The translations under genes and the position numbers were made by a program. A stretch of 37,478 bases of DNA from Alkaliphilus sp. (GTDB lineage Bacteria > Bacillota > Clostridia > Peptostreptococcales > NVVX01): positions 22,040 to 59,517 of the forward strand of contig NVVX01000014.1 of the NCBI GenBank assembly GCA_002733545.1. Reading direction: 5' to 3'. Under the pieces are notes generated by a model. It was not told where the DNA came from and searched no databases. It saw only the letters and a list, made by a program, of their open reading frames with translations. Below, in pieces: positions 14,558-36,409 of this stretch; the stretch's first letter is position 1; the number at the start of each line of letters is the position of its first letter.

Positions 14558-14767
14558 TTGAAAGGTTTGCCAATGATTACTTCATGTAGTCCTGGATGGA
14601 TAAATTATATTGAGGGTTTTCATCCTGATTTACTCGAACATCTTTCAACCTGTAAGTCGCCCCAACAAATGTTTGGTGCTCTCTCCAAAAACTATCCTAG
14701 TGGATGCATTGGTGGTGGTGGACAACCTATCAGTTCTACTAAAAAAATAGTCACCAAATGTATATAA
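14558..14767 (+). pseudogene. [FeFe]-hydrogenase H-cluster domain relic (L1 and L3 motifs fused, L2 missing)
   Basis: LPMITSCSPGWINYIEGFHPDLLEHLSTCKSPQQMFGALSKNY (L1 region) joined directly to PSGCIGGGGQPIS (L3 motif); only 69 aa, no L2 and no FeS-cluster N-terminal domains. Confidence 0.85.
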
Positions 14768-14799
14768 GTTAAAAATTTAACCTGAAACACATCTGTAGC

Positions 14800-14850: not shown

Positions 14851-15885
14851 TTATTCAACTTCTTTATTCTCTCTCGTAAGCACCAAATTCTCTAACAGAC
14901 TTTCTTTAAGTTTTTTCGTATCCGCAAAGTCTATATGACCCATATACCCAGCCATAACTCTTTTTACTTCTTCTAATGTCATTTCACCTTTTCTATATTT
15001 CTCGCCTATAATCTTTAAAACCTTCTTTATCCTTCTTTTTGTCTGTGACTTAATAAGAATGTGAGTTGACCACACCCTATATCCTAAAAATGTTACACCT
15101 CTATTAGCTGGGAAAACTTGCGTTTTGCTGTTTGTTTTCAGGTGCAATTCTAAGTCTATATAATCCTCTATACACGCTCTTGTCTGGTGCAATTCTTCTT
15201 TGTTCGAGCCGAGAATAATGAAGTCGTCCATGTATCTTATGTAGTATTTAATTCCTAAGTCTTCTTTCGCAAAATGATCCAACTCGTTCAGGTACGTATT
15301 TGCTAATAATTGTGATGTCAGAGCCCCAATCCCTAGCCCTTTAATCCCTTCGTTGATTTCTATGATCAACTTTAGTAACCACAGCAGGTCAGGATCTTTT
15401 ATTTTCTTCTCGACAATTTGGTATAGAGTTTCTTGAACAATCGAAGGAAAGTATTTTGCAATATCAGCCTTCAAACAATAAACTTTTCCAAACTTTTTTT
15501 CTGCTTCTTTCAGATTATTTTGGAGCTTCGTAACTGCTGCATGTGTCCCTTTGCCTTGTCTACACGCATAATTATCGCTTATAAATGTATCATCGAATAT
15601 AGGCTCTATTATGTTGTTTATAGCGTGATGCAGGACTCTGTCGTAGAAAGCTGGCGCAGAAATCAGTCTTTTCTTTGGAAAATAAGAATAAAAATCTCTA
15701 ATCGGTCGCGGTTTGTATGTTTTCCAAATGAGTTCATTCTGTAAATTTATTAGGCTTTCTTCAAGATTTTCTGTGTATTTTAAAACTTCTCTATCATATC
15801 TTTTGTTTTTTCTGGCCTTTAGGTACGCTAGATGCAAATTTTTAAAATCGTATATTTTTTCATATAGATGACCATGTCTTTTCAA
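14851..15885 (-). CDS. Diversity-generating retroelement reverse transcriptase
   Basis: 344 aa; KKRLISAPAFYDRVLHHAI, SDNYACRQGKGTHAAV, LKADIAKYFPSI, GLGIGALTSQLLANTYLNELDHF, YIRYMDDFIILG, TFLGYRVW; compact DGR-type RT beside TR and Avd. Confidence 0.95.
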   Translation of the reverse strand: MKRHGHLYEKIYDFKNLHLAYLKARKNKRYDREVLKYTENLEESLINLQNELIWKTYKPRPIRDFYSYFPKKRLISAPAFYDRVLHHAINNIIEPIFDDTFISDNYACRQGKGTHAAVTKLQNNLKEAEKKFGKVYCLKADIAKYFPSIVQETLYQIVEKKIKDPDLLWLLKLIIEINEGIKGLGIGALTSQLLANTYLNELDHFAKEDLGIKYYIRYMDDFIILGSNKEELHQTRACIEDYIDLELHLKTNSKTQVFPANRGVTFLGYRVWSTHILIKSQTKRRIKKVLKIIGEKYRKGEMTLEEVKRVMAGYMGHIDFADTKKLKESLLENLVLTRENKEVE

Positions 15886-16050
15886 TGCCTACCCCCTTTT
15901 TTTTAGAGCGGACGTTCTTCGAGCAAGTGCCTACCAAACGCCCTCTCAGATACTGCATGTATTTACCTCTACAGGAAGGTGATAAACCCCTTTCTCTTCG
16001 TGCACTGGATGCAGACCCATAGGTCTACATCTTCTGGCTTTGAAGACAGA

Positions 16051-16157
16051 GCGGAGCGAAACCCGATGTTCGTGTTCACGTTCGAGCGAACGTTGTTCAA
16101 ATTCAACGCGAAAACTCCAGCACTGGACGAATTGTTCCAATTGCCACCACGTAACGG
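16051..16157 (-). repeat. DGR template repeat (TR)
   Basis: Sense strand CCGTTACGTGGTGGCAATTGGAACAATTCGTCCAGTGCTGGAGTTTTCGCGTTGAATTTGAACAACGTTCGCTCGAACGTGAACACGAACATCGGGTTTCGCTCCGC; aligns to VR at +579. Confidence 0.95.
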
Positions 16158-16180
16158 CATATACGGTCTACCACCTGTGC

Positions 16181-16549
16181 TTAATTGCTCTTTTTTATCC
16201 ATCCCCCTAGTATTCTGCCAAGTTCTGCTATTTTCTCAGATATGTTTTTGTACTTGTTGAATGAAAGAAAAGGGCTTCCGTTCGCCTTGCTAGTCAACTC
16301 GCTAGCAAGGCGGAACATTGTTTTTAGATACTGTAATTCAATGTCTATATCTCTTAAAGTTGTCTTTTTGTGATACTTTTTACTAGCCGCAATGAGCATT
16401 TTAAGAATGTTATGCATGCTATTTTTTATATCCGCTGCCATGGTATGCTTTTCGGATTTTGGAAACTCACCTAAGCAAATGTAAACATACCTAATTAAGT
16501 CGTACATCTTTTGTGTTATGATCATTGACTCGTGTTTTTCTTCTGTCAT
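16181..16549 (-). CDS. avd: DGR accessory variability determinant (Avd-like four-helix-bundle protein)
   Basis: 122 aa, helical, basic (GEFPKSEKHTMAADIKNSMHNILKMLIAASKK...TTLRDIDIELQYLKTMFRLA); lies between target gene and TR. Confidence 0.88.
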   Translation of the reverse strand: MTEEKHESMIITQKMYDLIRYVYICLGEFPKSEKHTMAADIKNSMHNILKMLIAASKKYHKKTTLRDIDIELQYLKTMFRLASELTSKANGSPFLSFNKYKNISEKIAELGRILGGWIKKSN

Positions 16550-16613
16550 TTCTCACCTCGCGCTTGTCCTCGCTATCGCTCAGACATCAGATTTCATGTT
16601 TTCAGATACCATA

Positions 16614-17681
16614 TTACAGAACAACAAAAGCGGCGCGAAACCCGATGTTCGTGAGCACGTTCGAGCGAACGTAGTACAAAAGCAACGCGAAAACCCCAGC
16701 ACTGGACGAACTGCCCCAACTGCCACCACGCAACGGAAAATACTCCGTATTTGCTACTGTCGCGAACCAGAATCCATCATGTCCGAATTCCGCAACGCCT
16801 GTGACGTCCATGCTCGCTTGTATTCCTTCTTTTGTGATAGCTGCCAGTGTTTTTAATGCCGTTATTTTTTGTCCACTTGTGCCTGAAACGATTACCCCGC
16901 TCGGAACGCCGCCTTTCGTAATTTCACTGTTTCGCAACGTTATTCCCGCTACCCATTCCCAGACATTACCGTTAAGATCGTATACCCCTGTTGTTTTGCC
17001 GTTGTGTGTAGTCAGATTGACTCCAGCGCCCCAGCCTGTTTTTGTTCCTGTGCCAATTAGCGCGCGACCAGCTTGCGTAGGGTCAGCTGTAAACACTACT
17101 GAAGTGTCGTCCACATCTTTTAAGCTGCTGTTATTCCCGTATGGTTGCCAACGATTAGCCCCAAACACAGCAGGACCAATTAGCATGGAATATACCGCAA
17201 GCGATACAGCTTGCTCGTTTGTCATCATTTGTACATTCGAAGCTATGCACGCAGCAACAGAAGCATCCCAATCGACAGAGATCCAAGGTATAACCCCTTG
17301 CCTGCTCGTAGCAAGTGTTCCAACCCCTGCAGCACTGTTACTTGCATCGTTTCTGCTTGCTTGATATTTTCCAGCGTAGAAACCTAAGAACAAGACTTCT
17401 ACATAATCAGCATTTACTATCCCTGTCGCAGGCTCTACACTCACGAAAAAGCCAATTGGTCGACTCGGATGCGAGCACGCAGTCGGATTTATTAGCATAT
17501 ATGCACGAAAACTAGGCTGCCAAACGTAGATACTATTGTCAACTATGAAATCGTGATTCTCGTGTGCGTTTCCAGTGTCTAGCGCGTGCAATTTTTGCGT
17601 TTGAGAGACAAAAACACCGTCACTGTTTTGTGTGAAAGCGCTTGTAGGACTTCCGGCTCCTGTTCTTCTTATCAATATCAC
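16614..17681 (-). CDS. DGR target protein, FGE-sulfatase/C-type-lectin-like fold, probable phage tail-fibre receptor-binding protein
   Basis: GVYDLNGNVWEWVAG and YFPLRGGSWGSSSSAGVFALLLYYVRSNVLTNIGFRAAF; C-terminus coincides with VR. Confidence 0.9.
   Translation of the reverse strand: MILIRRTGAGSPTSAFTQNSDGVFVSQTQKLHALDTGNAHENHDFIVDNSIYVWQPSFRAYMLINPTACSHPSRPIGFFVSVEPATGIVNADYVEVLFLGFYAGKYQASRNDASNSAAGVGTLATSRQGVIPWISVDWDASVAACIASNVQMMTNEQAVSLAVYSMLIGPAVFGANRWQPYGNNSSLKDVDDTSVVFTADPTQAGRALIGTGTKTGWGAGVNLTTHNGKTTGVYDLNGNVWEWVAGITLRNSEITKGGVPSGVIVSGTSGQKITALKTLAAITKEGIQASMDVTGVAEFGHDGFWFATVANTEYFPLRGGSWGSSSSAGVFALLLYYVRSNVLTNIGFRAAFVVL
16630..16736 (-). repeat. DGR variable repeat (VR) at the 3' end of the target gene
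   Basis: Core 16635-16736 vs TR 16056-16157: 12 mismatches, all at TR sense-strand A. Downstream T/G difference at 16055/16634. Confidence 0.95.
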
Positions 17682-18587: not shown

Positions 18588-18917
18588 CTACACCACCTCC
18601 TGTATATTTATGTCGAATGCAAACATTATTCCTTGCATGTCTGTCTTTGTAGTTATATCTTGTTTTTCTAAAAAGATTCTCCCCATGTTGTCTAGAAGAA
18701 TGATTTTTGTTATTGTTCCTGTTACTAGATCGTCGAAATAAACAAGTATTCTTATTTTGTTTCCTGTTATTTCAACTTTGTGTATGGCGACCGTCCTAGG
18801 AGCGCCCTCAAATGTCATTTCTGCATGTGTTAAAAAGAGCTCAATACTCTTTGCAATAGCTTCTTTCCCTTGTGTTGTTATCACAATATCACCTCTCCTA
18901 CCATAAATGTCCCGCAT
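18588..18917 (-). CDS. Phage tail-region protein of unknown function
   Basis: 109 aa ORF in the tail operon between gp48-like and fibre genes. Confidence 0.5.
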   Translation of the reverse strand: MRDIYGRRGDIVITTQGKEAIAKSIELFLTHAEMTFEGAPRTVAIHKVEITGNKIRILVYFDDLVTGTITKIILLDNMGRIFLEKQDITTKTDMQGIMFAFDINIQEVV

Positions 18918-19582
18918 ACTCTAAAGTTTTTTGTTGCTATAATGTTAGATGTCTCAAATATGCTTGTGTATGAATGCCCTTTTATTTTATTCATTAACTC
19001 ATTTGATAAGAATGTACCGCATATTGGAAAATTGTATATGCCTGTATTATAAGACGTTTGTAGTCGCAATGTTGAATTGTAAAAATAGCCGTAATTTGGT
19101 AGAGCACTCGCTGGTTTTGTTCTTCTAATTTCTTTCTGCAAAGCCAAAAGGTTGTCTAGTGTGTTTAATTCGCCCTTGTCTACAAATACAATGAACTCCG
19201 CCCATCTCAGCAAATCTGTTTTATAGAGCGATTCAATGTATGCGTTTTCATGCCCTATACCTTTAAGCGCAATTAGCATCCCTTCGCTAGTCCCAGCTTT
19301 TCCTGCAATCACTTTTTTCAGCATAAGTCTATTTCTGAAAAGTTCCTCGCTTTCGTCATGCAGGCGTTGCATGCTTCTGTCTGCGCCATGTTGATTGAGC
19401 ATTTCCATAGAAGCACTCACAGCCATGGATTCTTCCCTAGCTTTGAAAATATCTTCTTTCGTCTTTTCGGCTATCCCCCCGAGAACTCTAAAAAATATTT
19501 GCAATTGATTCTTGTGGTTTACGACCTTTTTTAGTGGATTGTGGAGCAAGTAATACATGTATTCACAAAATTTATCAAACAT
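18881..19582 (-). CDS. Tail protein, Mu gp48-like (tail protein I-like)
   Basis: Position directly after the baseplate J-like gene; 233 aa. Confidence 0.6.
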   Translation of the reverse strand: MFDKFCEYMYYLLHNPLKKVVNHKNQLQIFFRVLGGIAEKTKEDIFKAREESMAVSASMEMLNQHGADRSMQRLHDESEELFRNRLMLKKVIAGKAGTSEGMLIALKGIGHENAYIESLYKTDLLRWAEFIVFVDKGELNTLDNLLALQKEIRRTKPASALPNYGYFYNSTLRLQTSYNTGIYNFPICGTFLSNELMNKIKGHSYTSIFETSNIIATKNFRVCGTFMVGEVIL

Positions 19583-19584
19583 GC

Positions 19585-20715
19585 CTACACCCTCTCAATA
19601 ATCACAGTTACGCTACCTAGGACAATAACCTTGTCATTTTGCAAAATTACATCGCCCGCAGGAGTTGTTATTTTGACATTTCTTAAAATACTTATCTCTT
19701 TTTTGAGCGCGAATATCAAGTCTGCTATATACAATTCGTTCAACTTTCTCTCTTTGGTCATTTTAAAAGCATCTGCAATTATTGATACCACCTTATTTTC
19801 TATCCCTGTGACATCAGTTAGAATTGGAATATAGATCGATACGCTCACATTCTGCGTTACTGCTTGCGCTGATTTCACGAGCAAGTTGTCGTGTGGCGCT
19901 CTTATTTTTTCAGCTTCCAATTTGACTTCGTCAAGGAGTATCTGTGTAGCTTCTCCAGCTGTGGATGTGATAATTATATCCACTGTTCCCTGCCCGCGTG
20001 GATGCATGTCGTCCACCGTAGCGAACAAAACTCCTGGCACTGCTTCGCATACAGTTCTGTACTTACCACTAATCGGATATGCTGCTAGCTCAGCCCATGA
20101 ATTGAGAATTCTTCCCCTGAACATCTCATCACTCTCAACATCACTTCCTTCTCGTGTAACCCACCCTCCCTCGTTTACAATCTCGTCTATCCCCTCAATG
20201 TAAACTAAAGACTTCTTTATTTGCCCTGATGGTAGATTGTATTTGATTCCTTCTCTTTCTGCTTCTACCAAAACTTCTGTAGATAAAATATTCTTTGCTA
20301 AAAATACGTCTTCCGTAGAAACAAACCTGAACTCTTCTCCATTTATATCCTTTTCTGTCTTAAAAACATTTCCTTTTGCAATTTTCAAGTTTGTGGTCGC
20401 TACAGTTCTTTTTAATGTCAAATTCCCCATAGTTTTTGTAGCTTCTTTCCTTTTCTTTGAATAGTCCGCGCCTTTGAAATCAAGCCAAATCCCATCAGCA
20501 GATGAGACGAACATATTTGATAACACCGTCCTGAGAAGTTTCACAAGTTCGATTCTAATCTGAATGAATATCATGATAATTGTGAAAAAGATTCCACCAC
20601 TATTGAAATTGTTTATGCTGAACCCTTCTGCTTCGAGTTCGCTAATTATCTCATCTTTTAGTCCATCTCGATCTGGTATAGGAATAACTCCATCTAAGAC
20701 TTTCTCACTCATCAT
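19585..20715 (-). CDS. Baseplate J-like protein (Mu gp47-like)
   Basis: GADYSKKRKEATKTMGNLTLKR...GNVFKTEKDINGEEFRFVSTEDV...YPISGKYRTVCEAVPGVLFATVDDMHPRGQGTVDIIITS. Confidence 0.88.
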   Translation of the reverse strand: MMSEKVLDGVIPIPDRDGLKDEIISELEAEGFSINNFNSGGIFFTIIMIFIQIRIELVKLLRTVLSNMFVSSADGIWLDFKGADYSKKRKEATKTMGNLTLKRTVATTNLKIAKGNVFKTEKDINGEEFRFVSTEDVFLAKNILSTEVLVEAEREGIKYNLPSGQIKKSLVYIEGIDEIVNEGGWVTREGSDVESDEMFRGRILNSWAELAAYPISGKYRTVCEAVPGVLFATVDDMHPRGQGTVDIIITSTAGEATQILLDEVKLEAEKIRAPHDNLLVKSAQAVTQNVSVSIYIPILTDVTGIENKVVSIIADAFKMTKERKLNELYIADLIFALKKEISILRNVKITTPAGDVILQNDKVIVLGSVTVIIERV

Positions 20716-28891: not shown

Positions 28892-29338
28892 TCACATCCC
28901 TTTAAGAGAATCTCTGCCAAATATCCGTTCGTTTGATTTCATATTGAAGCCTGTATTCGCTCTTTTTTCTACCTTCTTTACTCCTATATCAACAACACCT
29001 TTGGCTATGTTCTCAAGAAATCTAACCGCTGCTTTATACCTTGTAAGATGATTCGACTCTCTTTCTCCTCCTTCCATGCCAGTTCTTGAAAAGAGATTGT
29101 AGAGGGCTATGTCTTTTGAAAACTTATTTATAACTTTCGGGATAGCAGCCAGGGGAGTAGGATACCTTTTTGCCAGGTATCCATCTATTTCTCCATCCGC
29201 ATCCTCAATTGCTGCTTCAACGAGTGGTAGCAATTTTGCCTCTCGTTCGGCTACATTTTCGATAAACACATCGCCAATAATTATATTCATAGCATCGCCC
29301 TTAATCATTTCCATAACTTCTTGAGTTGTGCTATACAT
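28892..29338 (-). CDS. Mu gp36-like protein (DUF1320-type)
   Basis: ADGEIDGYLAKRYPTPLAAIPKVINKFSKDIALYNLFSR. Confidence 0.85.
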   Translation of the reverse strand: MYSTTQEVMEMIKGDAMNIIIGDVFIENVAEREAKLLPLVEAAIEDADGEIDGYLAKRYPTPLAAIPKVINKFSKDIALYNLFSRTGMEGGERESNHLTRYKAAVRFLENIAKGVVDIGVKKVEKRANTGFNMKSNERIFGRDSLKGM

Positions 29339-29347
29339 TCAAATCAC

Positions 29348-30235
29348 CTACACTACTTCGCCAGTAGATCCAAAAGCCATCTGCCAAAATCCATAGCCTG
29401 CGTTGGCTCTTGCATGAACTCCATAAAGAAATTGTTTTCTCATAAACACGTTCTCACTTTGATCACTGATAAGTGCATCAAATTTTGGGGCTTTTCTCTC
29501 TTGAAAAATCAGAGGCTTTAGTGCCTTTGTTGTGCAAAGCAAATACCAAGCATTGTCATTGCCAGCCAGTTCAGGAACGGCTAAGAAGTCAGCTGTGCCT
29601 TTTAAAATATTGCTTGACCCACTTCTCATGTCAGCAAGAAGAATTTCTCTTGCCTTTGATTCATTTGCTGGCGCAACCACCAATAAGTTAGGAACCAAGT
29701 TTAAGCTGTTGCCGCTTGTATCTTTTAGCGTCATTATCGCGCTTCTTGCTGCTTCGTAGCTTTCGTGCGAAAGCTTCTTGTTGCCTAAATTACTAATAGT
29801 TGCTTTGCCAATTTTATGAGCATCTGAAAAGAATGGTTTCCCATCATAGCACTTTAAAATAAATCCTTCTTTTAGCAGCTTGAAGACCAAGGTGTCAGGA
29901 AAGGCTTTCGTGCTTTGAGCAATGTCCTGTATAACAGGATTATAAACCCCTAACTTGTCGTCTTCTATGTCGTTTCTGTCAACCCCAACTGTAAGCTCAA
30001 AATCTTTGTTCTTGATTGTGTAGTCAGATGCAGCTAAGTTTTGTATCTCTCTATCTCCAACCCATTCCCTCATTCTCGGAAGCTTTCCTAGCCACTTATA
30101 GTTTTCCTCACCTGTTTCGCTCGGCACTCTCGTAGCTACTTTGTCCCAAAGAGTTGTTGTTTCTGTAAATACTTTATTGAAAATAGTCTTAAACCCTGTT
30201 GAAATCCCTTGTATTGCTTGCTGATTTACTAACAT
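29348..30235 (-). CDS. Mu-like major head subunit gpT
   Basis: LVNQQAIQGISTGFKTIFNKVF...KWLGKLPRMREWVGDREIQNLAASDYTIKNKDFELTVGVDRNDIEDDKLG. Confidence 0.93.
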   Translation of the reverse strand: MLVNQQAIQGISTGFKTIFNKVFTETTTLWDKVATRVPSETGEENYKWLGKLPRMREWVGDREIQNLAASDYTIKNKDFELTVGVDRNDIEDDKLGVYNPVIQDIAQSTKAFPDTLVFKLLKEGFILKCYDGKPFFSDAHKIGKATISNLGNKKLSHESYEAARSAIMTLKDTSGNSLNLVPNLLVVAPANESKAREILLADMRSGSSNILKGTADFLAVPELAGNDNAWYLLCTTKALKPLIFQERKAPKFDALISDQSENVFMRKQFLYGVHARANAGYGFWQMAFGSTGEVV

Positions 30236-30252
30236 ATCTCATTCAACCTCCC

Positions 30253-30651
30253 CTAAATAATTTCGACAATCACTTGACTGTCGTCTATTCTAATTACTTT
30301 ACCTGCCTTTGACGTTCCAGTGGCAAGCATGCACACCGTCTCGTCATCCAAAACAAAGCATTCCTTAAGCAAGTCGCCTCCCGTTACTGGGTTTGTAGTA
30401 TCATTGTTATACTTGAATATCCCACGTCTAACTTTGATGTTCTTCTCTGCATTAACTCCGCCAGTATTGTCGACAAACTCTTCTGCCCTCCCTGCCGAGA
30501 TTAAGTCTAACGCCGTTTTTCCTTGAACAGCAAAGCCAGCTTCAAGCATTACAATTCCACCTTCATAAATTTTTGTATTTGCCTTCACTGGCAAAATTAA
30601 CGTTCTTCCTTCTGCAATTTCAACTGTATTTCTTCCTGTCGTTAATGCCAT
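30253..30651 (-). CDS. Capsid decoration-like protein (Mu gp35 position)
   Basis: 132 aa beta-rich ORF between protease and major head genes. Confidence 0.65.
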   Translation of the reverse strand: MALTTGRNTVEIAEGRTLILPVKANTKIYEGGIVMLEAGFAVQGKTALDLISAGRAEEFVDNTGGVNAEKNIKVRRGIFKYNNDTTNPVTGGDLLKECFVLDDETVCMLATGTSKAGKVIRIDDSQVIVEII

Positions 30652-31674
30652 CTACTTCACTTCCTTTCCATATTTTTCAATGTCTTCGCTGTTTACTCCT
30701 AGCATCTTGCACACTCTAATTGTTGTTTCATCGTCTTTTTTCTGAGTCGTCTTGCCGCCGAAACTAATTTCACCCATAGGGACAACTTCTGGGGCTTTTT
30801 CAATAAACTTCTCAAATCCTGCAGGGTCTTTTAACGCATACTCTATAGCCCATTCTTTTTGCGTAGCTGTAATTTTTCCAGCCTTCATGGCTCTTGTGAC
30901 TAGCTCTTCTCCGTCCTTTTTGTCTAATCTTTCTTTAAGTTTATCAAACTCACTTGCTGGCACAAACCCAGCGGGGTTTTTTAAAGCCATAATTGACGAT
31001 GTAACATCTTCTGTTTTTGAAGTTTCGTCCAGTCCCAAAAGTCCTAAAACAGTCTTGTTCGCTACAATTTCTTCTCCTGTCCCCTCAGCTTTTTTATTAA
31101 TAATTTCTTTTAATGCTTCTACGATTTGCTCTTCTGTCGCATCTTCTTGCAATCCTAAAAGTGCCGCAATTTTTTTTGAATCCATTTCATTTCCTCCTTC
31201 ATTTTTATATTCTTCAAGGTCTACTTCTTCCGAAATATCCTTATTTATAATTGGATACATGTTGTTTATAGCTGGTGTGTTGGTGAGGGCTACCGAGTGA
31301 AGCACCACAGCCCGCGAATCTGATTTTCTCGTTAGCACAACAGGAGATAGGTATCTATACTCTTTATTTTCGAGGTACTCCTGCGCCTTCTTGGTCCATT
31401 CAACTTTAGCAATAATTGCTCCGTCTTCCATCTTAATATCTTTTATCCACCCCCCAGCAGGAGCTTCAACATTCTCTAGTGTTTGATGCTCATAGTCAAC
31501 TACAACGTCAAGTCCTCTTTTTTCAAAAGTATCCTTCATTTGTTTAAAGCTTTCTGCATCAACTATAAAGTCGCCCTTTAATGATGTTACGTTCCCCACA
31601 GGTAGAATTTTTACTTCCCCTGGTACTCCTTTCACTTCTATAGAATTTGCTATAATTCTGTGCCCGTTTTTCAT
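30652..31674 (-). CDS. Mu-like phage head protease (gpI)
   Basis: VVDYEHQTLENVEAPAGGWIKDIKMEDGAIIAKVEWTKKAQEYLENKEYRYLSPVVL; TNTPAINNM. Confidence 0.9.
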   Translation of the reverse strand: MKNGHRIIANSIEVKGVPGEVKILPVGNVTSLKGDFIVDAESFKQMKDTFEKRGLDVVVDYEHQTLENVEAPAGGWIKDIKMEDGAIIAKVEWTKKAQEYLENKEYRYLSPVVLTRKSDSRAVVLHSVALTNTPAINNMYPIINKDISEEVDLEEYKNEGGNEMDSKKIAALLGLQEDATEEQIVEALKEIINKKAEGTGEEIVANKTVLGLLGLDETSKTEDVTSSIMALKNPAGFVPASEFDKLKERLDKKDGEELVTRAMKAGKITATQKEWAIEYALKDPAGFEKFIEKAPEVVPMGEISFGGKTTQKKDDETTIRVCKMLGVNSEDIEKYGKEVK

Positions 31675-31723
31675 CTGTTTGTTTTTTCACCTCCTGCTGC
31701 CATGTTAGTCTTTTAAAATGACC

Positions 31724-31745
31724 GCGTTATCGCGCGCGATAACGC
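31724..31745. repeat. 22-bp perfect palindrome GCGTTATCGCGCGCGATAACGC
   Basis: GCGTTATCGCG + CGCGATAACGC are exact reverse complements; lies in the 129-bp gap between the gpI and gpF-like genes. Confidence 0.95.
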
Positions 31746-31803
31746 ATGTTGTAGCCTTAAATCATGCCTTTTGCTACCTAAACTACTTAGAAACTGTTTA
31801 GGC

Positions 31804-32526
31804 TTATTTAAGCTCCCTCCTTTCAAACGCTTTTTTTAGCGTTTCAGGGTAACCTTTTAAGTCAGGTTTAAAAGAAATCTTAGCGGGGTTCGTTCTGAAA
31901 TTACGATCTGGAAGTATATTCACGAAAGTTCCCTCCACCACACCTGCTCCCGGCATTCCTTCTTCAACTTTTATATTTCGTTGTTTGACTTGTCTTTCTG
32001 ACAGTGTCACAACTCCACATCTACACTTAAAGCCATTTGGTGGATACCACACATCCCAAACAGGATCATCTGCTCTATATACTTTTTGATCCATCGCCCT
32101 ATGTGTAAGTCTCGTTTTTCTGTCATCGACCGCATCGTACATCCAGAAAGGTCTCAGCTTAACAACTGTTGGGTCTGTTATTTGTTTGTAATGCCCTACC
32201 GAATAGGCAGTTTGCGCATTGGTTCTAAAAATGTTATCAGCTTGAAAATTAGTAATTCCAGTATAGCCTTTTTCGTCAAGAAACTTATTCATATCTTTTT
32301 TGAATTGCTCCATAGTCGTTCCCTCTTCAATCGCTGTTAAAAGTGCTCCGTGAAATTTGTTTAGTACTTGTACTTGGCTGTAGCCCGAAACTGTAAATGC
32401 TGATGCTCTATATTTTTCAGCGAGCGAATAAAACTCTTTAGGGCTTACAGGAAGCTTTTCGCCAAAATATTCTATAGCTTCCTCAAATTTTAGCGGGCTT
32501 CTAAGGAGCTTAATCAGATCTTTCAT
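31804..32526 (-). CDS. Mu gpF-like minor head/head morphogenesis protein
   Basis: RAMDQKVYRADDPVWDVWYPPNGFKCRCGVVTLSERQV. Confidence 0.92.
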   Translation of the reverse strand: MKDLIKLLRSPLKFEEAIEYFGEKLPVSPKEFYSLAEKYRASAFTVSGYSQVQVLNKFHGALLTAIEEGTTMEQFKKDMNKFLDEKGYTGITNFQADNIFRTNAQTAYSVGHYKQITDPTVVKLRPFWMYDAVDDRKTRLTHRAMDQKVYRADDPVWDVWYPPNGFKCRCGVVTLSERQVKQRNIKVEEGMPGAGVVEGTFVNILPDRNFRTNPAKISFKPDLKGYPETLKKAFERRELK

Positions 32527-34075
32527 TTTCCTTCATCCTCCCAAAAATATCCGCATAAAACATTACCTTGTGAAGCAACTCTTCAAGTTTTTCGTTGTCC
32601 ATCTCTTCGTACAACTTCAGCACTGATTCATCTGTCTTAAATACTTCTTTAATTTCTTCTAGCGATTTGGCTGAATTTACAAGCTTTAGTACTGGATCGA
32701 AGCTCTGTCTAAACATCTGTGCACTTTTCTCTATTGAGTGTTCTATTATCTCGCTTACTTTTTCTTGTTGATTATTGTGATTTTCTCCACTTTCTTTGCT
32801 CGCATCGTCTTTTAATACCTTCATGCTTTGTCTATTTCTCTCTCTTTCAGGGGCAACTACTTCCTCATTAGCCTCTGGCTTTGGAACTCCAAACTTTTTG
32901 TATATATGCGAAGATGCTATTCTAAGACCTATCTTATTTACGAGTATGTCATATATCTCTACCGTTTCTTTTAGGTCTCCTGCTTCTTCGCTGTCAAATC
33001 TTAGATACGGTATTCTTTTGTTCTCTCCAAAGTTAAAGAGCACAAGCGGTCTTATAAGATCTCTTCTCACAGTAGCTGCTAACGCTTTGCAGTCTGCCAT
33101 AGTTAAATCATGCCTTACTTCATTGTGCGTTTTACTTTGTGCAAAAGACCCTCCACCGCTGTCTGAAGTCAATGTTTGCCCCAACAGCGCTTTCGACATT
33201 TGTTCGTCGCAGAACCTCGCAAGAGATTCGTATACATTGATTGAAGTTGTTTTAGCACTTTCTTTAAACTCGATTTCTGTGTTGTCAGGTATTATCCCCG
33301 CCGCATCTGTGCCAAGCATTACGAGCGCCTTCATTAGCGCTTCTTTGTCTTCTTCTGATGCGGAAGGATTGTACTTGCCAAGTCTAAGCGGCATTCCAAA
33401 GACTTCACAAAAGGCAACCCAATCCTTGACGTCATAATTTTTGAACAAATACATCCATGCTACTACTCTCAGTGTGCCTGCACGAGAAGGATGCCCTGAG
33501 CGTGCCTTATACCTATGAACAATGAACTTATTCTCTGGAACTATAATTCCATTTGGAAACTCTTCAGTCATTACTTTGAAAATGTCATTTTCGTCCCAAA
33601 AGAACTTTTTCTGATGCCTCCACTTAACGTCCTTAATGGTGTGTTTGTCATTTTCATTTTCCCAAATAATTTCACTTGTAGCTATTCCTTTCCCAACTGC
33701 ATCTAGTAGGTCTAAGAACATGTCCTCCATTGATTCAATGCTTTCAATTTCTTCTTTAACAAATTCAGCAATCTTTTTGTCGTACTCGTCATCTGAAAAA
33801 GGAATAACTTCAAAGTCAAGCCCAGTAACTGCGTTTTTCCGAGTTTGAAGTTGTGAAAAAAGATGCGGATCTTTCTCTTCCATTTCTTCAAAGAGTTCCA
33901 TTTGTCTTAGCACGTCTCCCGAATCAGCTTCTCTAAAAATTTGTGCAAGCCTTGTAGGAGTCAACCCGTTTGATGGATAAGTAGAATATTTATCCTGTAT
34001 TTGTACTGCTGCAATTTCTCCCACAATTGGTTTTTTGAATTTGTTTTGAATATAGCTAAGTGCTCTTTTAATCAA
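32510..34075 (-). CDS. Mu gp29-like portal protein (DUF935-type)
   Basis: GLTPTRLAQIFREADSGDVLRQMELFEEMEEKDPHLFSQLQTRKNAVTGLDFEVIP. Confidence 0.92.
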   Translation of the reverse strand: MIKRALSYIQNKFKKPIVGEIAAVQIQDKYSTYPSNGLTPTRLAQIFREADSGDVLRQMELFEEMEEKDPHLFSQLQTRKNAVTGLDFEVIPFSDDEYDKKIAEFVKEEIESIESMEDMFLDLLDAVGKGIATSEIIWENENDKHTIKDVKWRHQKKFFWDENDIFKVMTEEFPNGIIVPENKFIVHRYKARSGHPSRAGTLRVVAWMYLFKNYDVKDWVAFCEVFGMPLRLGKYNPSASEEDKEALMKALVMLGTDAAGIIPDNTEIEFKESAKTTSINVYESLARFCDEQMSKALLGQTLTSDSGGGSFAQSKTHNEVRHDLTMADCKALAATVRRDLIRPLVLFNFGENKRIPYLRFDSEEAGDLKETVEIYDILVNKIGLRIASSHIYKKFGVPKPEANEEVVAPERERNRQSMKVLKDDASKESGENHNNQQEKVSEIIEHSIEKSAQMFRQSFDPVLKLVNSAKSLEEIKEVFKTDESVLKLYEEMDNEKLEELLHKVMFYADIFGRMKENERSD

Positions 34076-34086
34076 ATACTCGCCTC

Positions 34087-35853
34087 CTAGTAAGCTCCTT
34101 TTTTAAACTTCAGCGTTCTTGATATAACTGATTTGTACTCTACTTTTGTGCTACCCTTTATGTCAAGTGCAAGTCTTACAGCCATTTCGAGTCCATCGGG
34201 AGCATCGTCATTTCTTCCCATCGGGTACTCTTTCATTTGCTGGAGAAGTGTTTTATGCTTTTCATTGAACTTGATGTACCCATTTTTTATCATTGGTTGT
34301 AGTGATCTAATTCTTAAGTCTTTGTTTTGTCTGCTTATAATCTCTTCAATGGGCATATATTCTCCAGCTTCAACTGAACGTTTTGCCATAACCTCTTTGA
34401 AAAAATATTGAAACTGTACCGACTCTACTCCGAACCTATGCAAGGGTTTCTTGTATTCTCGCTTTAGCCTTTTTGAGGTTTCAATTGCATCTGTTATGAT
34501 TGCATCCGGTTTTCTTTTCTCCACCGAAGCAACGAGTATATACATGTATCCTGATTTCATGTCTTTTGCAAGCACTATAATAGAAGACATGTCGCTTTTT
34601 TTGTTTTTCCCAAGCGAGGGATCGTTTGCGCCAATGAAGATAAATCTGCTATCTGAAAAATCAATCTCGCCGTCTTGATAAAAGTCAAACCATTCTTCAT
34701 TGAATGTGCATGAGTCTGGGTCGATTGGATCGTTTTGAATCTCACTGTTAAAAGATGACTCTCCTTCTGAAATTTTCATGACCATTAGTCTGTAGTATGA
34801 ATTTTTCTCTTCCCACAAAACCTCCGTACCTCTTGTCATTTCTTCTTCGTTACTTCTAAAAAATTCCAAGGCATCTTCTTTCCTGCTGCCATTCTCTAGA
34901 TTGGTAAATATATCTTCCCACACTTGCCACAAAGCACTTTCTTCAGCAAAGCTGATTACTCCTCTGTATTTTTTACTGTCGTATTCTGGATTAGAAAGAA
35001 CTTTTGATAGAAGACTATCGTAGTGAAGTATTGTCCCTATATATACTATGTCCGTGTAGCCATCGCCCGCTTTTGAAACTGCTTTTTTAAACCAATTATC
35101 AAGTTTTCTTCTTTGCTCTGGCGTGTTCACGTTTTCATCGTTCTCAACGTCATCAAGCACGATTAAATCAGGTCTCCAATTTCTGTGCCTCCTACCCCTT
35201 ATCTTTTTCCCTGACCCAATAGCTTGAATTTTTATATCTGTCGAAGTAAGTATTACGCTGCTTTTCCAAACCTTTTTCCCTTTCAGTATTCCAAAGTCGT
35301 CCTTTATCGCTTCGTTTTCTTCAAGTTCCATTTTTATATCTTCGAGAAACCCCTCTGCTTGATCGGAGCTGTCCGATAGGATAATGGCATAATGCTTGTA
35401 CTCGTACATTATGGCGTGCAATGTGTCTTTGAAGGTAAAGTTTGTTGATTTTGCGTGCCCTCTAGGTGCTGCAACCACTTTTCTACACCCATTGCTACTT
35501 GCGATTTTTTCTTTGTCTCCTAGTGGGTTTAGCCCCTTCATAACACCTTTGCTCCAAATATCATCTAGCTCTGCATGGAAAGCTGGCGATTCTCTTATGA
35601 AGTATTTTGGAAGGTATGCTCTTCCAAAATATGCAAGGTCTATTGCCCCAAGCCTTTTTCTAAGTCCTTTTCTTCCTATAAGAGGAGCTCCTTTTTTGTG
35701 TTCTCTTATTAATTGTTTTCTTATTTTTTTGTGATTTTTGCCTCTGCTCACGTATTGCATGAATAGCTTTTTTTGAAACTCTAAATCTTCTTTTGCTTCG
35801 ATGTCTTCGTCTTCGTTTTTGAGTTTCCCTATGTAGTCGTCTAGTCTATTCAA
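34087..35853 (-). CDS. Terminase large subunit (Mu gp28 analogue)
   Basis: KVVAAPRGHAKSTNFTFKDTLHAIMYEYKHYAIILSDSSDQAEGFLEDI; RPDLIVLDDVENDENV (Walker B). Confidence 0.9.
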   Translation of the reverse strand: MNRLDDYIGKLKNEDEDIEAKEDLEFQKKLFMQYVSRGKNHKKIRKQLIREHKKGAPLIGRKGLRKRLGAIDLAYFGRAYLPKYFIRESPAFHAELDDIWSKGVMKGLNPLGDKEKIASSNGCRKVVAAPRGHAKSTNFTFKDTLHAIMYEYKHYAIILSDSSDQAEGFLEDIKMELEENEAIKDDFGILKGKKVWKSSVILTSTDIKIQAIGSGKKIRGRRHRNWRPDLIVLDDVENDENVNTPEQRRKLDNWFKKAVSKAGDGYTDIVYIGTILHYDSLLSKVLSNPEYDSKKYRGVISFAEESALWQVWEDIFTNLENGSRKEDALEFFRSNEEEMTRGTEVLWEEKNSYYRLMVMKISEGESSFNSEIQNDPIDPDSCTFNEEWFDFYQDGEIDFSDSRFIFIGANDPSLGKNKKSDMSSIIVLAKDMKSGYMYILVASVEKRKPDAIITDAIETSKRLKREYKKPLHRFGVESVQFQYFFKEVMAKRSVEAGEYMPIEEIISRQNKDLRIRSLQPMIKNGYIKFNEKHKTLLQQMKEYPMGRNDDAPDGLEMAVRLALDIKGSTKVEYKSVISRTLKFKKGAY

Positions 35854-36409
35854 TGCTAATCACCTTTTCTTTTGCTTTTTCAAATACTGCATTGAATTCT
35901 CTTACGAGACTTGCATCTGACTTAATTAATTTCAGCAATTCGTCTTCCATCTCCTCAAACGCAAGCTCAGCTTTCTTTTTCATGTCGTGTTGTATTTTTC
36001 TTTTATATGACTCTGCTCTTGCAACACTTACAACCAGCCGCCCAGCTTTATCTAGTGGCATATCACCAAACTCTTCTTGTGCGTTAGATATTTTTTCTAT
36101 CAACCCACCCATAAGTAAATGTGTCGCTGCGCCAGTGTAATCTTCATTCGGATTTGCTTTTATGGCTTTCACTAGCTGATTTGTTTGTTGTTGGACTTCA
36201 ATTAGCCTCAACGAAGCTTTGTTTGTTCTAATTGCATATCTCCCTACAGAACTCTTGCTAATTTCTTCTCCATATTCTTCAAGTAGCCAGCTTGATATTT
36301 CTTCGTAGGTAATGCTCGTATCAAGAAGCATGTCATCAATTTTAGATCTAGTTTCTTTGTCTAGAGTGCTTATTTTGCTTGCTACTCTTGTTCTGCTGCG
36401 TTTTGTCAT
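35846..36409 (-). CDS. Small terminase-like DNA-binding protein (Mu gp27 / DUF3486-type)
   Basis: STLDKETRSKIDDMLLDTSITYEEISSWLLEEYGEEISKSSVGRYA. Confidence 0.9.
   Translation of the reverse strand: MTKRSRTRVASKISTLDKETRSKIDDMLLDTSITYEEISSWLLEEYGEEISKSSVGRYAIRTNKASLRLIEVQQQTNQLVKAIKANPNEDYTGAATHLLMGGLIEKISNAQEEFGDMPLDKAGRLVVSVARAESYKRKIQHDMKKKAELAFEEMEDELLKLIKSDASLVREFNAVFEKAKEKVISIE

Follow-up and report, generated by a model that had tools for sequence, protein, structure and literature searches.

A complete diversity-generating retroelement at the right end of a Mu-like prophage of Alkaliphilus sp.

We analyzed a stretch of 37,478 nucleotides from Alkaliphilus sp. (assembly GCA_002733545.1, contig NVVX01000014.1, positions 22,040 to 59,517), here called the window, for which a diversity-generating retroelement (DGR) had been predicted at positions 14851 to 17681. 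The original prediction named a target gene with a C-terminal variable repeat (VR), avd, a template repeat (TR) and a reverse transcriptase (RT) gene, all on a single strand. Each of these parts was found, the RT gene ending at base 14851 and the target gene starting at base 17681. All are located on the minus strand in the order target-avd-TR-RT, and the cassette is a real and complete DGR with the following features:

16614..17681, minus strand: DGR target gene, 355 amino acids, GTG start, PHROG 2889 (E 2e-31); an N-terminal part and a C-terminal domain of the formylglycine-generating enzyme (FGE)/C-type-lectin kind
16629..16743, minus strand: VR, 115 nt, codons about 314-351 of the 355-codon target
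16181..16549, minus strand: avd, accessory variability determinant, 122 amino acids, Pfam bAvd PF22296 (E 1e-31), PHROG 3206
16050..16164, minus strand: TR, 115 nt, with 13 of its 15 differences from the VR at adenines
15904..16051, minus strand: structured spacer RNA between TR and RT, Rfam RT-14 (RF02921), 148 nt, 66.2 bits (gathering threshold 48.1)
14851..15885, minus strand: DGR reverse transcriptase, 344 amino acids, TTG start, PF00078, PHROG 1423 (E 5e-133)

The identity of the cassette as a DGR was borne out by the adenine bias of the TR/VR pair, by Avd, by the RT motifs and by the families matched by the target. The VR had been expected at about 16600-16760; it lies there, although its exact span is 16629-16743. 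TR/VR pairs of DGRs are expected to span about 100-150 nt, with at least 75% of the mismatches at TR adenines. The TR and VR align without gaps and are 87% identical, with 15 mismatches over 115 nt. Thirteen of these (87%) were located at TR adenines, as six A>G, five A>T and two A>C changes. Adenine makes up 25 of the 115 TR nucleotides, and the binomial probability of this distribution if mismatches were placed at random is 1.6e-7. The concentration of mismatches at TR adenines shows that the VR was diversified by mutagenic homing in the past. The two differences at other nucleotides were found near either end of the repeat; they are expected there, either from fading homology or from a homing site that differs between TR and VR. 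At their 3' ends the TR and VR are nearly the same, apart from a single T/G difference. Most of the variable TR codons are AAY, and there is no TR codon in which adenine changes can create a stop. A second VR was not found elsewhere in the genome, the other matches being chance hits of 14-20 nt.

For the accessory protein, either the Avd or the HRDC type was accepted. The protein encoded by avd scored above the cut-offs of both PF22296 and NCBIfam NF033474 DivGenRetAVD (104 bits, cut-off 80). RTs of the DGR clade were recognized by the motifs (I/L/V)GxxxSQ and Y(M/V)DD. The YMDD active-site motif that had been noted earlier was found at residue 218, and the DGR-type motif IGALTSQ was found in addition at residue 186. 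These assignments are motif and sequence matches.

A DGR target gene is further expected to encode a C-type-lectin fold and to carry the VR in its 3'-terminal part. The target protein had no match in Pfam, but its structure was predicted from 48 aligned relatives with a pLDDT of 70 and a pTM of 0.77. The best match to the predicted fold was the DGR variable protein TaqVP (5vf4, E 2e-10), followed by formylglycine-generating enzymes and Mtd of the Bordetella phage BPP-1. The model thus supports a C-type-lectin fold of the TaqVP/Mtd/FGE type for the target, and the FGE and C-type-lectin motifs described earlier agree with it. Going downstream, the gene order was tape measure, baseplate genes, Baseplate_J, a tail protein, three small genes and the target. 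This is the position in which Mu has its tail-fibre genes. Judged from its sequence and position, the target most likely forms the tip of the tail fibre and would be a receptor-binding protein; this is our best guess.

A structured RNA is expected as spacer between the TR and RT of a DGR, and here the spacer was identified as RF02921. When we searched 18 related loci and BPP-1, RT-14 was found in nine other loci (L091, L092, L093, L095, L097, L098, L100, L101, and L184). It was always located just before the RT (the RT of L184 itself being unchecked), and it adjoined the 3' end of the TR within about 10 nt wherever the locus contained a TR. In BPP-1 the same position is taken by a structured spacer RNA of another family, RF03022 Phage_DGR. 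Among 297 genomes from the same taxonomic order only five carried RT-14 (L276-L280), one of them below the family cut-off. All five had a TR/VR pair abutting RT-14 and a DGR-like RT beside it. The Rfam families RT-2 (L116, L118), RT-9 (L032), and RT-18 (L123) were also observed directly before DGR-like RTs. When the entire TR-spacer region was folded by minimum free energy, the signal was weak (z of -1.55), and the Rfam covariance model is more telling. It is likely that RT-14 represents the TR-RT spacer RNA of one sub-group of phage DGRs, as a counterpart of RF03022; other sub-groups may have RT-2, RT-9, and RT-18 in this role. No paper tying RT-14 to DGR spacers was found in a literature search of partial coverage, which is weak evidence of novelty.

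The cassette had been placed in a Mu-like prophage, and this was supported by Mu-type head genes, by MuA and by prophage ends with a 5-bp duplication. As Mu-like (Saltoviridae type) we counted prophages with Mu-type head genes, MuA together with a MuB-like ATPase, and TG...CA ends flanked by a 5-bp duplication, all of which were found here. The neighboring features in the window are:

28892..36409, minus strand: Mu-type head module (Gp36, gpT major head, protease I, F, Mu portal, terminase, Gp27)
19585..20715, minus strand: Baseplate J-like protein among the late genes upstream of the target, PF04865 (E 5e-29)
18881..19582, minus strand: tail protein between baseplate J and the target, PHROG 34969 (E 3e-57)
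14794..14799, minus strand: right terminus of the Mu-like prophage, ...GCTACA
14789..14793, minus strand: apparent 5-bp target-site duplication GATGT, with a second copy beside the left end (contig C65, 7125-7129)

The RT gene is the last gene of the prophage, with 57 bp between its stop and the right end. The minus strand terminates with ...GCGAAGCTACA at window position 14794, compared to ...GAGCTACA at the end of Bacillus phage BalMu-1. The prophage ends read TGTAG...CTACA. The prophage part of the window has a G+C content of 39%, against 31% for the host flank.

The GemA family was also matched in the prophage, and contig C9 stops at 63711 after GemA. The left part of the prophage was found on contig C65 (1-7124, L264), with MuA, a MuB-like ATPase and a repressor, followed by the TGTAG end beside recA; the family matches on this contig were Mu-transpos_C (E 3e-13), DDE_2 and AAA/TniB ATPase. 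C9 and C65 most likely carry the two parts of a single prophage that has inserted between recA and the mrp operon, since the two parts lie on the same strand, GATGT is found at both ends, and recA and an mrp remnant are neighbors on one contig in the same-genus genome G002. We infer this join, which is unassembled. Several short repeats of the CATCA type were observed both at the end of C9 (L008 4600-4712) and at the start of C65 (L264 1-100), and these repeats may be the reason why the assembly broke inside the prophage. In G002 the region between recA and the mrp remnant (contig C42, L274, 1714-11838) contains 10 kb with sugar-uptake and ADP-ribosylglycohydrolase-like genes, named from their translations, and no prophage.

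A 528-amino-acid prophage protein (L008 960-2546, minus strand) combines phosphodiester glycosidase (NAGPA), N-acetylmuramoyl-L-alanine amidase and SH3 domains, and by its sequence is probably the endolysin. In the host flank, a remnant resembling the large subunit of [FeFe]-hydrogenase was found at window positions 14558-14767 (plus strand), seemingly without an internal stretch. Longer homologues with open frames of about 585 codons are present on contigs C43 and C67. We rejected the idea that this fragment is a gene split by the prophage, as it is located about 27 bp outside the prophage right end and an internal stretch seems to be missing.

The combination of a DGR with a Mu-like clostridial prophage had been put forward as the standout of this locus. 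This did not hold, because BalMu-1, the Faecalibacterium phage Mushu (PMC5883640; PMC11792537) and the Bacteroides hankyphage (PMC6199706) precede it. The Mu-like BalMu-1 (NC_030945) has the same order of baseplate genes, FGE/SUMF1-like target with C-terminal VR, Avd, TR and RT. Its TR and VR differ at 11 positions, 10 of them at A, which is the same kind of pattern as here, and the phage end reads ...GCTACA in both. The RTs of the two are 46% identical and the targets about 30% identical. In BalMu-1 a holin and an endolysin follow the RT, whereas here the RT gene is the last gene. Mushu, which has a clostridial host, is a Mu-like transposable prophage with a DGR, 5-bp flanking repeats and VR variation in reads (PMC5883640), and resembles the present prophage in combining a DGR with a 5-bp target duplication. 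A later study of Mushu found a weaker and shifted VR signal (PMC11792537). The hosts of both BalMu-1 and Mushu are Firmicutes. The hankyphage also shows Mu-like transposition, 5-bp repeats, and a DGR with a variable VR (PMC6199706), but it differs in its host phylum and in having a target without similarity to characterized proteins. The BPP-1 prototype (mtd-avd-TR-brt) has the same parts in the same order, an RT that is about 40% identical and a target, Mtd, of related fold. It is annotated with an attachment site in a tRNA gene, unlike the Mu-type ends found here. Among more than 30,000 surveyed DGRs, three mainly phage-borne lineages targeted host-attachment proteins, and C-type-lectin folds were found throughout (PMC8144416).

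By analogy with the BPP-1 prototype and its relatives, the RT would copy the TR-spacer RNA into cDNA with random insertion opposite TR adenines, and the RT-14-type structured spacer would be the likely scaffold for RT and Avd. The cDNA would then take the place of the VR in the 3'-terminal part of the target gene, where up to 16 codons could be changed. The changed codons may lie on the ligand-binding face of the C-type-lectin domain. With a target that most likely forms the tip of the tail fibre, the outcome would be a set of phages differing in binding specificity. Present-day activity, tail-fibre location and host-range switching are likewise suggested by the prototype and its relatives.

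Altogether, a complete phage-type DGR that occupies the right (tail-fibre) end of a transposable prophage of the Mu-like kind, working by the copying mechanism outlined above on a tail-fibre-tip target, is very likely the explanation that accounts best for the locus. Its anatomy, adenine bias, unbroken frames and motifs, fold match and Mu-like context are directly supported by the data presented here. Several observations pull in the other direction. The confidence of the target model is only middling, as its pLDDT shows, and the tail-fibre role of the target is deduced from gene order. No convincing hairpin of the kind that BPP-1 has was found just downstream of the VR. We found a single other copy, on the IMG/VR contig 3300033049_000030, and its 8171 bp, among them the VR, are identical to the present sequence. 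No close relative with a different VR was found, the phage records giving no near match.

The cassette could accordingly be a fossil that formerly diversified its VR and is now silent in the lysogen, as the identical VR in the only second copy might suggest, and some cultures do show DGRs without read variation (PMC11792537). We consider this unlikely. The reading frames of RT, Avd, and target are all unbroken with their catalytic motifs kept, the spacer RNA scores well above the cut-off of its Rfam family, and 13 adenine changes versus two others point to little later drift. Moreover, the identical IMG/VR contig may come from the same sample as the present prophage. The DGR is probably functional. 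It is also improbable that the target is another virion protein or a protein of the lysogen surface, e.g., one that decorates the capsid, which has been reported in Mushu, and not the receptor-binding tip. The target does lack a high-scoring match to a tail-specific family; however, it follows baseplate J and tail genes that are encoded upstream of it on this strand, in the position of the FGE-like target of BalMu-1 and also in that of the Mu tail-fibre genes. Finally, the RT being that of a group II intron or retron, with the repeat as a chance duplication, has a negligible chance of being correct. A sub-threshold NCBIfam match to group II intron RTs (141 bits, cut-off 300) speaks for it, but this reading is refuted by the adenine-biased TR/VR pair and the DGR-type RT motifs including IGALTSQ, in addition to the neighboring avd and a best sequence match among solved structures to 8ub7 (E 2e-60), which we take to be the BPP-1 RT-Avd-RNA complex.

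The phage-type DGR described here fits the known picture of DGRs without departure and leaves the knowledge of DGRs unchanged. It is a clean and complete DGR in a Mu-like phage, and since its closest RT relatives in public phage records are less than 60% identical, it widens a known group. If RT-14 and similar RNAs do serve as DGR spacers, a set of named RNA families would gain a role open to testing, namely that of a scaffold or primer when DGRs reverse-transcribe their template. The cassette could also be a test case for the spread of tail variants by a transposable phage.
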